DNA of 64,000 nt from NCBI RefSeq assembly GCF_002834295.1, contig NZ_PISP01000001.1, positions 1 through 64,000 of the forward strand. Reading direction: 5' to 3'. Positions within the stretch are counted from its first letter, which is position 1, and each line of letters starts with the position of its first letter. The notes below the pieces were generated by a model, which was not told the origin of the DNA, did not search any database, and saw only the letters and a program-made list of their open reading frames with translations. Below, in pieces: positions 39,020-43,721 of this stretch. Origin of the DNA: Rhodohalobacter barkolensis (lineage in GTDB: Bacteria; Bacteroidota; Rhodothermia; Balneolales; Balneolaceae). The translations under genes and the position numbers were made by a program.

Positions 39020-41062
39020 TTAATTTTGAAGCAGATTTTTTAAAGATTCCATATCAAATACCGGAGCTCTACAGGAAAAATTGCTGCAGACATATACGGC
39101 TGGCTTCTCCTTGATTGGGTAGGATTTGGCAAAAGGTGCGACAGCTCCAAGTTGATCTGAAGTTTCTACTGTTTTCAACAGGATTACAGAGCCCGTTCCG
39201 GCAAACTCTCGTGCGGTATTTAACAGAGAATTCGTTTTTTCATCGACCTTTTCGGCTGTGATCAGAATTTCGTTTGAAGGCTGTTGTATCACTTGATGGG
39301 CATAGATCGCAAAGGTATATCCGGCCGGTGCGTCAGAGATCTGTTCTGAAAAAGCCGTTAAAATCTGTTCGACTTGGTGTTCAAATTCCGATTGACCTGT
39401 GAGCCGGGAGAGTTTATAACCGTTGTAAACGGCAACTGAGTTGGATGACGGAATTGCTCCATCATAAATTTCTTTTTGCCGACCGAGTAGCACTTCGGCA
39501 TGTTCAGCTGTGTAGAAAAATCCGCCGTGCTTTTGATCGGCAAAATGCTCAGTAAATCGTTTCTGAAGTTCAACCGCCTCTGACAGGTAACCGGGATCAA
39601 ATGTGGCGTTGCAAAGTTCGGTAGCTCCCCAGATCAGAAAGGCGTAGTCATCTGCCATCCCTTCAATTTCAGCTTCGCCATCTTTGATTCGATGGAGCAG
39701 GAGTGATTGTTCTGTTTTACATAGATTGAGAAGTTGCTTGAACGCTTTCTCTGCCTTTTCAATCAATTCTGTTTCATTTAAAAGAACTCCGGATTTGGCC
39801 AGGGCCGCAATCATCAAGCCGTTCCAGTCGGTCAGGATTTTGTCATCCAATAGCGGACGGATTCTTTTTTCTCTTTGTTGATTAAGTTTCTGTCTTATTT
39901 CAGTCAGTTTACTTTCTTCTAGATCAGTTAGCAAATGCGACAGGTGTGGAATATTCTTTCCCGTTCGCTGCCGGGTCGACTCATCCAGGAAATTTCCTTC
40001 CGAACGGATATTGTAGTGTTTACAAAAAAGATCTGACTCTTCATCCGTTAAAACAGCGTCGATCTCTTCCCGACTCCAGACATAAAATTTACCCTCTTCA
40101 CCTTCACTGTCTGCATCTTCGGCTGAGTAGAAGAGTCCGTCAGGCGACTTCAACTGAGATTCAACATAATCCACGATATCGAGTGCTGTTTCTTTGAATA
40201 GAGGCTCCCCGGTGAGCTTCCATCCCTCGGCGAAGGCCATCAACAGCGTGGCTTGATCGTAGAGCATCTTTTCAAAGTGGGGGAGAAGCCACTCATGATC
40301 GGTGGAGTAGCGATGAAATCCCTTACCGATGTGATCCCAGAGACCGCCGAGCCTCATCTGAAGCAGAGTCTTTCCTACCATCTCTTTTGCTTCATCATGT
40401 TCATGAATGTGTGCGTAATCGGCTAAAAAGAGAAGATTGTGAGGGGAGGGGAACTTAGGAGAACCACCAAACCCACCAAACTCGGGATCGTATCGGTTCT
40501 TCAGATTTTGGAATGTGTCCTCTGTGATATTTTCAGGAAGCGCCTGATTGGATTGCCCCAAATGCAGGCTTTTCGAGAAGCCCTCCTTAATTCTCTTCAC
40601 GGCTTCATCAATTCGCTGCCGATCGTTCTGCCACGCATTTTTGATTTGCGGTACGAGGTCTGTCATTCCGATCCGATTCTGCATCGAGCGTTTGGGCAGA
40701 TAAGTAGCGGCAAAAAAGGGTTCTTTGTCCGGAGTCATGATGATGGTCAGTGGCCAGCCACCCTGACCGGTCAGCATCTGGCAAACGGTCATATAGGTGT
40801 TGTCGATATCGGGGCGCTCTTCGCGGTCTACCTTAATGTTCACAAACGCTTCGTTCATCAACCGTGCAACCTCATCATCTTCAAAACTCTCATGTGCCAT
40901 CACATGACACCAATGGCAGGTGGCGTATCCAATCGATAGAAAAACCGGTTTATTCTCTTTCCGAGCCTTATCAAACGCTTCTTCGCTCCACGGAAACCAA
41001 TCCACAGGATTCTCGGCATGCTGAAGGAGGTAGGGTGATTTTTCTTTTGAGAGGCGGTTCAT
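39020..41062 (-). CDS. yyaL: YyaL/SSP411-like thioredoxin-domain protein
   Basis: A 680-residue cytosolic protein of the DUF255/spermatogenesis-associated 20 family. The N-terminal thioredoxin-like domain (about 1-160) has the hallmark start [17 protein letters not shown] and the CxxC-type motif [16 protein letters not shown]. The following (alpha/alpha)6 barrel (about 180-600) resembles N-acylglucosamine 2-epimerases, with [20 protein letters not shown] and [14 protein letters not shown]. Function is not settled; a role in redox or sugar chemistry is guessed for the family. Length matches the family. No operon partner is apparent. Confidence 0.88.
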
Positions 41063-41148: not shown

Positions 41149-41188
41149 AATGTTCAATTCATTTTTTAATGAATGATGTAATTGAACA
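41149..41188. repeat. 10 bp inverted repeat hairpin
   Basis: ATGTTCAATT (about 41150-41159) and AATTGAACAT (41180-41189) form a perfect stem, with a smaller CATT...AATG pair inside. It lies between the YyaL start and the HicAB cassette boundary. It could be a terminator for neither strand in particular; function unknown. Confidence 0.4.
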
Positions 41189-41282
41189 TCACACTTTAAA
41201 ATCACTAACTATAAATAAGTAAAGCCGAAGTTGGTGTATTTATTGAAAAGAAGTAAGTTCATCAATAATATGTTAGGCAACT

Positions 41283-41690
41283 TTACTTAGCATCTTCTTT
41301 CTCTTGAAAATCAATAATAATTGGAAGCTGTTTAACTTTTTTCCATTTCTTTTTGGTTTTTTCTTTGATAATAATTTTAAACTCTCCAGCTTGGTTTATC
41401 TCAAAGGGACTTATTCTTATATGAGTCCTATGGAAATTGCTATTAAATTTTATATCTGATAGTTCTTTTTCTTTTTTTACTTCACCATCAGGAGCTATTA
41501 CTTCTATCTTGATGACTAAATCTTCTTCATCAGATTCCCTTTTCCATAAACTTGCCACAACTAATGGCGGGAAAGCATATGGTAATTCTGGAATACCAAT
41601 TTGATCAAAGGAATTAATATAAGACACTAAATTTGTGTGCTTATCTACAATTGCATTCTGACATGTTACACTCCAAATATGTTTAGCCAT
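41283..41690 (-). CDS. DUF6941-like small protein, third gene of the hicAB operon
   Basis: A 135-residue soluble protein that begins with AKHIWSVTCQNAIVDKHTNL, a start typical of the DUF6941-like family of unknown function. The middle has a beta-sandwich pattern (PPLVVASLWKRESDEEDLVI, RTHIRISPFEINQAGEFKI) and the end is Lys-rich. It starts 2 nt after the hicB stop, so it is in the same transcript. It lies inside the same cassette boundaries. I know no function. It might modulate or shield HicA/HicB, but nothing in the sequence proves it. Confidence 0.68.
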   Translation of the reverse strand: MAKHIWSVTCQNAIVDKHTNLVSYINSFDQIGIPELPYAFPPLVVASLWKRESDEEDLVIKIEVIAPDGEVKKEKELSDIKFNSNFHRTHIRISPFEINQAGEFKIIIKEKTKKKWKKVKQLPIIIDFQEKEDAK

Positions 41691-41692
41691 TG

Positions 41693-42247
41693 TTACACCA
41701 CCTCAATATTGTCTTTGTTACTTTCTTTTAGGCCAGTAAAATCAAAAAATGATGATTCTTGTATACCAGTGCTTACATCAATGCTTCCCTGTATGTATGG
41801 GTTAATCTGTCCAATCCACTTTGATTCAATGTTTCCAAGATTCCATCTATGGATTTCAGATGTTTTTTGGAATACATCAATCATCTTTTTAAATGAAAGT
41901 TGTTCTTTTTTGGTTGTGAATCCCTCAGTTAAATACTGAATCATTAAGGTATTTAATGAAACACCTTCTTCTTCAGCCATTCCAGCTAAACGAGCATGCA
42001 ATGATTTAGGTAACCTTACTCTAATTTGTCCGCTGTATTCTTTGGTAAGGTTTGGATTAGGCAGTTCCTTGCATTCCTCTTCATAAGTTTCAATGAATAA
42101 TTCTAACGCAATCTCTGCTTCCTGAATAGCTTCACTTGGAGTTTCACCAAACGCAGATAAACCTGGAAACTCAGGACATTCTGCGATATAACCTTCATCT
42201 TCTTCACTATAATGGACTTTAAAACTATACTTTTCTTCTTTTTTCAT
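41693..42247 (-). CDS. hicB: HicB-family antitoxin with Arc/RHH-like DNA-binding end
   Basis: A 184-residue antitoxin counted from the ATG at 42247 (KKEEKYSFKVHYSEEDEGY); an in-frame upstream ATG at 42286 would overlap hicA. Residues about 5-60 are the partially degraded RNase-H-like HicB domain (YSEEDEGYIAECPEFPGLSAFGETPSEAI). Residues about 75-105 form a ribbon-helix-helix (GQIRVRLPKSLHARLAGMAE), which would bind the hicA operator. The C-terminal 75 residues are longer than in most HicB and of unknown role. It lies 10 nt after hicA and 2 nt before the third gene. Confidence 0.85.
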   Translation of the reverse strand: MKKEEKYSFKVHYSEEDEGYIAECPEFPGLSAFGETPSEAIQEAEIALELFIETYEEECKELPNPNLTKEYSGQIRVRLPKSLHARLAGMAEEEGVSLNTLMIQYLTEGFTTKKEQLSFKKMIDVFQKTSEIHRWNLGNIESKWIGQINPYIQGSIDVSTGIQESSFFDFTGLKESNKDNIEVV

Positions 42248-42257
42248 CAGTCTATAA

Positions 42258-42497
42258 CTATAGGTTATGTTCTTCAATCGCATCAAGTAATTGCTTTACT
42301 TGAAATGGTTTGGCTTCACCATTTCGTTCTTGAAAATTCATAAATATGGATTTATCCGGATGATTCATCATAATATGGGAACCCTTTTGCCTTTTGAACA
42401 CAAAGCCATGGTATTCAGCAAGTTTTATCAAGTCATTAAACTTGTAATTCTTAGCTGAGTTCTTTGCGCTTTCAAGTAACTTTTCCTTTTTCCCCAT
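42258..42497 (-). CDS. hicA: HicA mRNA interferase toxin
   Basis: A 79-residue toxin of the YcfA/HicA family, a dsRNA-binding-fold RNase that cleaves mRNA and is blocked by HicB. The conserved core is KLAEYHGFVFKRQKGSHIMM, with the catalytic His in GSH near residue 41, followed by HPDKSIFMNF. The end EAKPFQVKQLLDAIEEHNL fits the C-terminal helix. It is the first gene of the operon (toxin before antitoxin, as usual for HicAB). Its start lies 16 nt after a tandem TCGGTACC repeat that is the likely operator. Confidence 0.85.
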   Translation of the reverse strand: MGKKEKLLESAKNSAKNYKFNDLIKLAEYHGFVFKRQKGSHIMMNHPDKSIFMNFQERNGEAKPFQVKQLLDAIEEHNL

Positions 42498-42512
42498 TGT
42501 GTAACGTAAAAG

Positions 42513-42538
42513 TCGGTACCATATTCGGTACCAAATAT
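42513..42538 (-). promoter_or_regulatory. Tandem operator of the hicAB operon
   Basis: TCGGTACCATAT (42513-42524) is repeated as TCGGTACCAAAT (42525-42536). Each copy contains the palindrome GGTACC and the two are 12 bp apart, about one helical turn. This suits a dimeric RHH-type HicB that represses its own operon. It lies 16 to 41 nt upstream of hicA. Confidence 0.55.
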
Positions 42539-42573
42539 ACTTTTTTATAAATTATCAACCAAATTTCGAAGTT

Positions 42574-42697
42574 GCCTAACAATACGCATTAACTAGGGGC
42601 GCGGAGGTGCCGTTAGTTTCCGGAGTTGCTTGTTTAGAATTTTTAGCCGTTAATTAACTCATAATCTCCGCGCCCGTTATACGCATTGCTGTTAGTC
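42574..42697 (+). other. attC-like recombination site
   Basis: GCCTAAC at 42574-42580 fits the R'' box RYYYAAC, and GTTAGTC at 42691-42697 fits the R' box GTTRRRY with one mismatch. Just inside are long stem arms GGGCGCGGAG (42597-42606) and CTCCGCGCCC (42666-42675). An ATACGCATT sequence lies in both arms (42582-42590 and 42680-42688) in direct orientation. The 124 bp length is that of the long attC sites of Vibrio-type integrons. The folding and the imperfect R' box keep the call tentative. Confidence 0.5.
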
Positions 42698-42860: not shown

Positions 42861-43061
42861 ATGAAAACAGAACCCATCGTTTCAATTTTGACAGGGTCGG
42901 TTTTGGCAACTGCAATCATTTTCATTGGTTTATCAATAATGAATTCAGTTGAAATTGCGCTGTACAATTTTCTGGGATCACTTTTCGCTGCCGTCTCTAT
43001 TCATTTAGTACACTACTATCGAAAACTGTATGACAGAAGTGGTTTTAAAAATGAGTATTGA
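42861..43061 (+). CDS. Small two-helix membrane protein
   Basis: A 66-residue protein with two hydrophobic segments (SILTGSVLATAIIFIGLSIM, about 8-27, and ALYNFLGSLFAAVSIHLVHY, about 33-52), a short turn and a basic tail (YRKLYDRSGFKNEY). It is probably a small inner-membrane protein. I do not recognise a family. It lies just outside the cassette and could belong to a lost neighbouring cassette, or be unrelated. No second attC-like site is seen on its right. Confidence 0.5.
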   Translation: MKTEPIVSILTGSVLATAIIFIGLSIMNSVEIALYNFLGSLFAAVSIHLVHYYRKLYDRSGFKNEY

Positions 43062-43214: not shown

Positions 43215-43721
43215 CTACTCCTCATCTATCTTTAAATTTTTCAGTCTCTCACCATAATCCACCAAAAACCGGTCGTACTCTTTGTCCATCAGTTCTGAGG
43301 TAATTAAAAAATCGGCTGAGGTACGATCGCAGGCCAAGGCGATATTGTACACAATGGATATGCGAAGAAGTGCCTTCACGTCCACATCGTGAGGTTGCGC
43401 CTGGAGGGGATCCCAGAAAAAGATCAGAATATCCAGTTTGCTTTCGGCGATGGCTGCACCAATCTGAAGATCGCCTCCCAGAGGTCCGCTCATAAACCGG
43501 TGTACAGGCAAATTCAGTTTATCTGCAAGGAGACCGCCGGTAGTGCCTGTTCCGTAAAGATCGTGCTGCATCAGGATATCGCGGTTGTAATCGGCCCAGT
43601 CAATCAGGTCGCGCTTGCGATAGTCGTGGGCAACAAGTCCTATTCGTTTTCTTTCACCCATTGGTGCGGTGTGGGATGCAATGCTGGGGTGGGGTTTTCT
43701 TGTGTTGGTTTCTTTGCTCAT
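43215..43721 (-). CDS. mgsA: Methylglyoxal synthase
   Basis: A 168-residue cytosolic lyase that converts dihydroxyacetone phosphate to methylglyoxal and phosphate, a bypass of lower glycolysis. Signatures: RKRIGLVAHDYRKRDLIDWA, YGTGTTGGLLADKL (phosphate binding), SGPLGGDLQIGA (catalytic Asp in GGD) and FFWDPLQAQPHDVDVKALLR. It has about 20 extra N-terminal residues before the core. GlpD, which makes the same substrate, is elsewhere in the window, but no operon link exists. Confidence 0.95.
   Translation of the reverse strand: MSKETNTRKPHPSIASHTAPMGERKRIGLVAHDYRKRDLIDWADYNRDILMQHDLYGTGTTGGLLADKLNLPVHRFMSGPLGGDLQIGAAIAESKLDILIFFWDPLQAQPHDVDVKALLRISIVYNIALACDRTSADFLITSELMDKEYDRFLVDYGERLKNLKIDEE

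Follow-up and report, generated by a model that had tools for sequence, protein, structure and literature searches.

The origin of cassette clusters that lack an integrase gene is an open question in integron biology, and two answers compete: integrons may decay, or cassettes may be inserted at random secondary sites. The answer is hidden because current finders ignore attI sites outside class 1. A lone cassette in Rhodohalobacter barkolensis raises the same question for a single locus. We analyzed a stretch of 64,000 nucleotides (here called the window) that is part of the 1.8-Mb contig C1; the genome (G000) comprises 3.6 Mb in seven contigs, and the assemblies compared are drafts. An initial annotation had described a hicAB region in this window as one integron gene cassette lying outside an integron, either inserted at a secondary site or left from a lost array.

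The cassette and its attC site

The motifs that the initial annotation had placed at the cassette borders, GTTAGGC at 41272, GCCTAAC at 42574, and GTTAGTC at 42691, are present there. The cassette limits drawn at the G|TT points are sound as well (Table 1), and relatives swap cassettes at exactly those points. The 5' end of the cassette is complementary to R'' (GTTAGGCAACTT / AAGTTGCCTAAC), and its GC content is 33.9%, compared with 42.9% for the window. The inverted repeats said to flank the genes are real and exact, but they extend over 13 nt and not 10 bp. As described, 1 nt separates the DUF6941 stop codon (41283-41285) from the 10-bp repeat; the codon touches the 13-bp repeat. Such a repeat alone is not rare, with about five other sites in the window carrying exact 13-mer inverted repeats 300 to 1,300 nt apart. 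Because counting did not rule out chance for the repeat alone, we did not treat it as evidence; the part that exceeds chance is how well it fits the anatomy of an attC.

Table 1. Features of the cassette locus and its flanks, in window coordinates.
Feature	Position	Strand	Basis or remarks
Left neighbor, thioredoxin-domain DUF255/DsbH-type gene	39020-41062	-	PF03190
attI module, GTTCAAT class, 124 bp, without intI gene	41152-41275	+	aligned with intI-linked attI of G054
13-nt exact inverted repeat	41271-41283 / 42569-42581		TGTTAGGCAACTT / AAGTTGCCTAACA
Left crossover G|TT, attI/cassette junction	41272-41273	+	left side common to G042, G044, G058; sequence then differs in each
Gene cassette, 1,419 bp	41273-42691	+	genes oriented opposite to attI-to-attC direction
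DUF6941 gene, third in operon, 135 aa	41283-41690	-	PF22091, E = 2.5e-6, just above cut-off
hicB antitoxin, 184 aa	41693-42247	-	PF05534, E = 1e-13; C-terminal ribbon-helix-helix-type HicB domain plus extra tail
hicA toxin, 79 aa	42258-42497	-	PF07927, E = 2e-10; KGSH motif present
hicAB promoter region	42510-42566	-	repeated GGTACC half-sites (GGTACCGAATATGGTACCG)
attC, 124 nt	42574-42697	+	R'' GCCTAAC, 42574-42580; L'' CGCATTAAC, 42585-42593
attC, other arm	42676-42697	+	L' GTTATACG, 42676-42683; R' GTTAGTC, 42691-42697, currently target-supplied
Right-hand rest of inserted segment	42692-43215	+	like G044 at start; not found in the other 26 genus genomes
Right neighbor, MGS-like domain gene	43215-43721	-	PF02142; synteny

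Rfam returned no attC match at the window site, and we therefore built our own models. The attC covariance model (R1) was seeded with eight attCs from integron arrays of other species of the family, with the window excluded. In these seeds, 12 of 24 pairs changed on both sides, and 91% of cells are paired, compared with 30-46% in slid structures. R1 produced one match only in the 64-kb window, at 42574-42697 (94.5 bits, E = 2.4e-22), so the lack of an attC match, which the initial annotation had named as the refuting outcome, did not occur. The match supports the proposal of a single integron gene cassette with a real attC, located at its 3' end and showing the R''/L''/L'/R' architecture. Folded as single-stranded DNA, as had also been suggested, the bottom strand reaches -20.3 kcal/mol (z -2.6) and the top strand -18.0 (z -1.6); the recombining attC strand is predicted to be the bottom one. 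Closure of the cassette into a circle gives an R box paired over 13 bp and a fold of -29.1 kcal/mol, against -20.5 in the integrated form. The nearest attC compared is that of G025, from another genus (84%), and the best within G000 is at 77%.

The three minus-strand genes of the initial annotation are supported by family matches to HicA, HicB, and DUF6941; NCBIfam returned no match to any of the three proteins. The adjacent hicA and hicB genes, matched by the HicA_toxin and HicB families, are a predicted toxin-antitoxin pair by family and adjacency. The GGTACC half-sites are likely a HicB operator. HicB relatives are scarce, with only two among 92 genomes of the family. The hicAB genes of G055 share 82% DNA identity over 679 bp with 41891-42566 of the window, and the homology stops at 42566, 3 nt short of the extended R'' box. 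Because the match ends just before R'', the operon and its promoter form one unit to which the attC was joined. We considered the G055 HicB as a second cassette copy and rejected it: no attC is present there, and the G055 hicAB does not lie in a cassette.

A putative attI site without an integrase gene

The module left of the cassette consists of palindromic GTTCAAT...ATTGAAC iterons at its leftmost end, a spacer, and then the core GTTCATCAATAATATG|TTA. The iterons are conserved, and the alignment with the intI-linked attI of G054, which extends from them to the core, scores 118; shuffles reach 58 at most. The core motif adjoins integron-integrase genes in G054, G025, and G032 and is directed away from them, and the core end in the window, AATAATATG|TT, resembles published attI2 cores, AATAAAATG|TTRRRY (PMC12901181). 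We also built a sequence model of the module (R2), trained mostly on copies without intI and with the window copy included; it matches the window module, itself a member of the training set, at E = 5.8e-26. The model recovered an untrained copy in G073, which adjoins intI too. With homologues that adjoin intI and a crossover at G|TT that has cassettes on its right side only, the left flank (41152-41275) is, judged by homology, a true attI.

Copies matched by R2 occur in 22 of the 92 genomes, about 18 of them strong. An intI lies within reach of just two of the strong copies, those in G054 and G073; variants adjoin intI in G025 and G032. Around the other strong copies, the search covered mostly 1.5 kb on the intI side and gave no match to intI at E ≤ 1e-3, leaving aside G049, where the contig ends. 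Modules of the GTTCAAT class that lack intI are common in the family, and the intI-less ratio applies to this class only because R2 was trained mostly on intI-less copies. The copies start sharply at GTTCAAT, and for this reason we considered that the attI module might itself be mobile; this idea was rejected, as intI leader remnants in G063 (contig C72) and G016 fit deletion of intI better. One locus of G061 (C259; L262:2401-4060) has two tandem attI modules separated by about 1.5 kb that include a gene; their left flanks resemble each other, and the arrangement recalls attI-type cassettes.

A tblastn search of the window returned no match to IntI at E ≤ 1e-3, and no intI stands next to the attI at this locus. 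The sole integron integrase of G000 is encoded on contig C6, together with a cassette and further attCs. The integron-integrase model NF011946 gave weak Xer-type matches in every control genome, and the count in the genus was therefore limited to matches below 1e-40. In a tree of 19 IntIs, those of G054, G073, G025, and G032, which accompany GTTCAAT-class attIs, group with that of G043 (support 100/99), apart from the C6 IntI, which belongs to another clade and has another attI class than the window module. The attI type appears to follow the IntI clade. The description of the cassette as outside an integron is thus right in that no integrase gene is present here, but the cassette appears to sit in an integron without intI, the complete one being elsewhere, on C6. 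At the C6 site (C6:270656-271606; L001, L008), which recurs in G044 and G042 (C228 and C52; L185, L186) with its flank at 83-84% over 1.3-1.5 kb, the species differ in the IntI clade and attI class of the integron platform that they carry, and the site looks as if intI and attI had been replaced in situ.

No integrase was found in G058, G055, or G049, and G067 yielded a short intI fragment only. An intI leader without intI precedes the attI module in G063 (C72; L242:1430-1500), and another is present in G016; together with the G067 fragment, these leaders show that intI has decayed in the GTTCAAT class. The junction GAGACCGGAA(T/A)|GTTCAAT is common to G000 and G058, and for this reason intI was probably lost before the two split. 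No genome has intI in place at the window locus, where it would have been deleted.

The locus is not the only one of its kind in G000. R1 found ten attCs in this genome, several of them far from C6, and their cassette starts led to further attI-like flanks. The stretch C1:785.9-786.4 kb aligns to the attI of G044, G042, and G060 with a score of 152 (shuffles ≤ 53), an attI-like stretch on C7 near 0.7 kb (L261:1-900) belongs to the same class (148 versus 63), and C1:484.4 kb aligns to a second attI of G044 (72 versus 47). By these alignments, two or three further cassette clusters of G000 stand behind intI-less attIs of other classes. This brings the attI classes that head such clusters in the genome to at least three, and the class that goes with the resident integrase is not among them. 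A further candidate orphan attI at C1:1633.6 kb (C1:1634072) was dropped as borderline, with a score of 56 versus 53 for shuffles. The intI-less cluster at C1:783.0-786.4 kb (L017:8998-12430), with its other attI class, contains two attCs or more, and its far end carries a Phd/ParE-like pair. In the C7 stretch, the core GTT now reads GTA, and an attC lies about 0.4 kb away.

Cassette exchange and the history of the locus

We located the orthologous locus across the genus via the dsbH-type gene. In G054 and G062, this gene and the MGS gene are 80-130 bp apart with no attI between them, which is the ancestral, insert-free arrangement. The left flank up to the core GTTCATCAATAATATG|TTA is retained in G042, G044, and G058, and the content to the right of G|TT is different in each. 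The left flank of G044 matches the window at 83% over 2.2 kb and the right flank at 93% over its first 57-58 bp, where the G044 contig ends; the right-flank comparison thus covers 58 bp in one relative, and the G058 contig ends 70 bp past the attI. Between the same two G|TT points, G044 carries a PIN toxin gene (PF13470, 9e-20) and a small partner gene in a cassette with its own attC (32.6 bits). Behind the same attI, G042 has two cassettes, ParE with its antitoxin (ParDE) followed by HepT/MNT. All four cassettes found at the locus in three species are toxin-antitoxin modules or look-alikes, and the species exchanged cassettes exactly at the two G|TT points.

Other changes at this place were also observed. 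In G042 (C55; L132:6930-8060), an IS30-type element splits the attI module at the orthologous locus. The right flank in the window contains a 66-aa plus-strand open reading frame (42861-43061) with no family match. Unrelated inserts of 3.6-5 kb occupy the gap between the dsbH-type and MGS genes in G067, G055, G061, and G065 (L136, L138, L140, L143), and the place is therefore variable even without an attC.

These comparisons indicate that the locus is most probably the remains of an integron between the dsbH-type and MGS genes, which lost intI and kept its attI and an addictive cassette. The data show the attC, the homology of the attI and its linkage to intI elsewhere, the lack of intI here, the exchange at G|TT, and the ancestral arrangement without insert. 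A GTTCAAT-class integron with intI, attI, and cassettes would have arrived between the two genes in the ancestor of G000, G042, G044, and G058. The integrase gene would then have been lost, with the attI and one or two cassettes remaining. The hicA-hicB-DUF6941 cassette would have entered at the G|TT of the attI in an ordinary attI x attC recombination, the attI being double-stranded and the attC a folded bottom strand. The former presence of intI and its deletion here, the enzyme that made the last exchange, and the retention of toxin-antitoxin cassettes through addictiveness are the inferred parts of this scheme. The phrase "left from a lost array" fits it only in part: intI was probably lost, perhaps along with further cassettes.

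One of the two origins offered by the initial annotation was insertion at a secondary site, for which attG sites would be the targets. Such insertion likewise puts a cassette away from an integrase and is documented (Loot et al. 2024, as cited in PMC12901181 and PMC12444791), and no integrase lies nearby here. However, a short degenerate core suffices for an attG, which is neither attI nor attC, whereas the target in the window matches an intI-linked attI over 124 bp, and other species carry different cassettes at the same point. Insertion at a secondary site is contradicted by the homology of the target to the intI-linked attI modules of the family, and we consider it very improbable. Scarcely better placed is the idea that the 124-bp module has nothing to do with recombination and serves the dsbH-type gene as a promoter or regulator site. 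The module does lie 90-210 bp upstream of that gene, but it adjoins unrelated genes in G055, G064, G067, G061, G068, and G071 and intI in G054 and G073, and the sequence changes fall exactly at G|TT. The exact 13-bp inverted repeats at the ends could also mark a transposon-like unit, yet the right repeat is 110 bp interior to the true end, neither a target duplication nor a transposase was found, and any attC R box necessarily has such a repeat in common with the cassette start. The attC model match and the G044 junctions contradict this reading, and its probability is close to negligible.

The same structure could be read differently, with the intI-less attI being no relic but a working docking platform, kept by selection and served in trans by integrases, resident or incoming, that are encoded elsewhere. 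When the locus is compared between G000 and G058, columns without variation in other-locus copies are kept in 59 of 69 cases, compared with 23 of 54 for the remaining columns (Fisher p = 5e-7). The attI core has remained conserved since the loss of intI, which suggests, short of proof, that the site has been useful; the neighboring gene cannot account for the constraint because these elements are conserved next to unrelated genes as well. The probable loss of intI before the G000/G058 split, the three different cassette contents in three species, and the frequency of intI-less modules in the family also favor a platform. On the other hand, the resident C6 IntI is of a different clade, whose attI class differs from that of the window module, three of the genomes with the module (G058, G055, and G049) yielded no integrase and G067 no more than a fragment, and an intI lost after each exchange would look identical. 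We regard a working platform as possible but rather unlikely. Equally tentative is its extension to the whole family, in which integrons would shed intI and keep attI, and several specificities per genome would form standing platforms, filled and emptied in trans, with toxin-antitoxin cassettes turning over between species.

Relation to known integrase-less clusters

With the integron remnant as the preferred reading, a lone cassette that resembles a random insertion in fact appears to sit in a real, conserved attI, as other clusters of G000 do in attIs of different classes. The question of cluster origin becomes testable, as integrase-less clusters can be scanned for attI. The locus also raises the possibility that an attI may outlive its own integrase as a usable platform. 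We found no report of a family-wide conserved intI-less attI or of several classes per genome in a literature search that left most subscription journals outside, and a search for integrons in Balneol- returned nothing on the topic.

One proposal holds that CALINs are degraded integrons (Cury et al. 2016; IntegronFinder 2.0, PMC9024848), and they can be mobilized in trans (PMC12444791). Like a CALIN, the window locus has an attC-bearing cassette and no intI nearby; unlike one, it has a recognizable attI and a single attC, where the IntegronFinder 2 default is now at least two. It would be a single-attC CALIN by the older definition, and G042 has two cassettes. Sites of the attI type outside class 1 are poorly described and undetected by IntegronFinder 2.0 (PMC9024848), and attIs in CALINs would therefore be missed.

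The sedentary chromosomal integrons of Vibrio and Xanthomonas (PMC11023631, PMC12444791) likewise contain toxin-antitoxin cassettes with their own promoter, and they too include inactivated intI genes with arrays kept and CALINs at fixed loci. In contrast, the genome studied here has small arrays and several attI classes, and attI is kept at intI-less loci. The delta-attI sites and delta-attI-type cassettes of class 1 and 2 integrons (PMC12901181) also place an attI away from intI and share the core AATAAAATG|TTRRRY, but they are truncated attI pieces inside arrays, whereas the window has a full-length module at a chromosomal locus. In the Shewanella prophage M16-3, one CALIN begins with an attI (PMC9892861), so that, as in the window, an attI heads a cassette array without intI. 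That attI is nearly identical to the one of a complete integron in the same prophage, whereas the attI of the window belongs to a class without an integrase in its genome, its site is kept across species, and other attI classes occur likewise.
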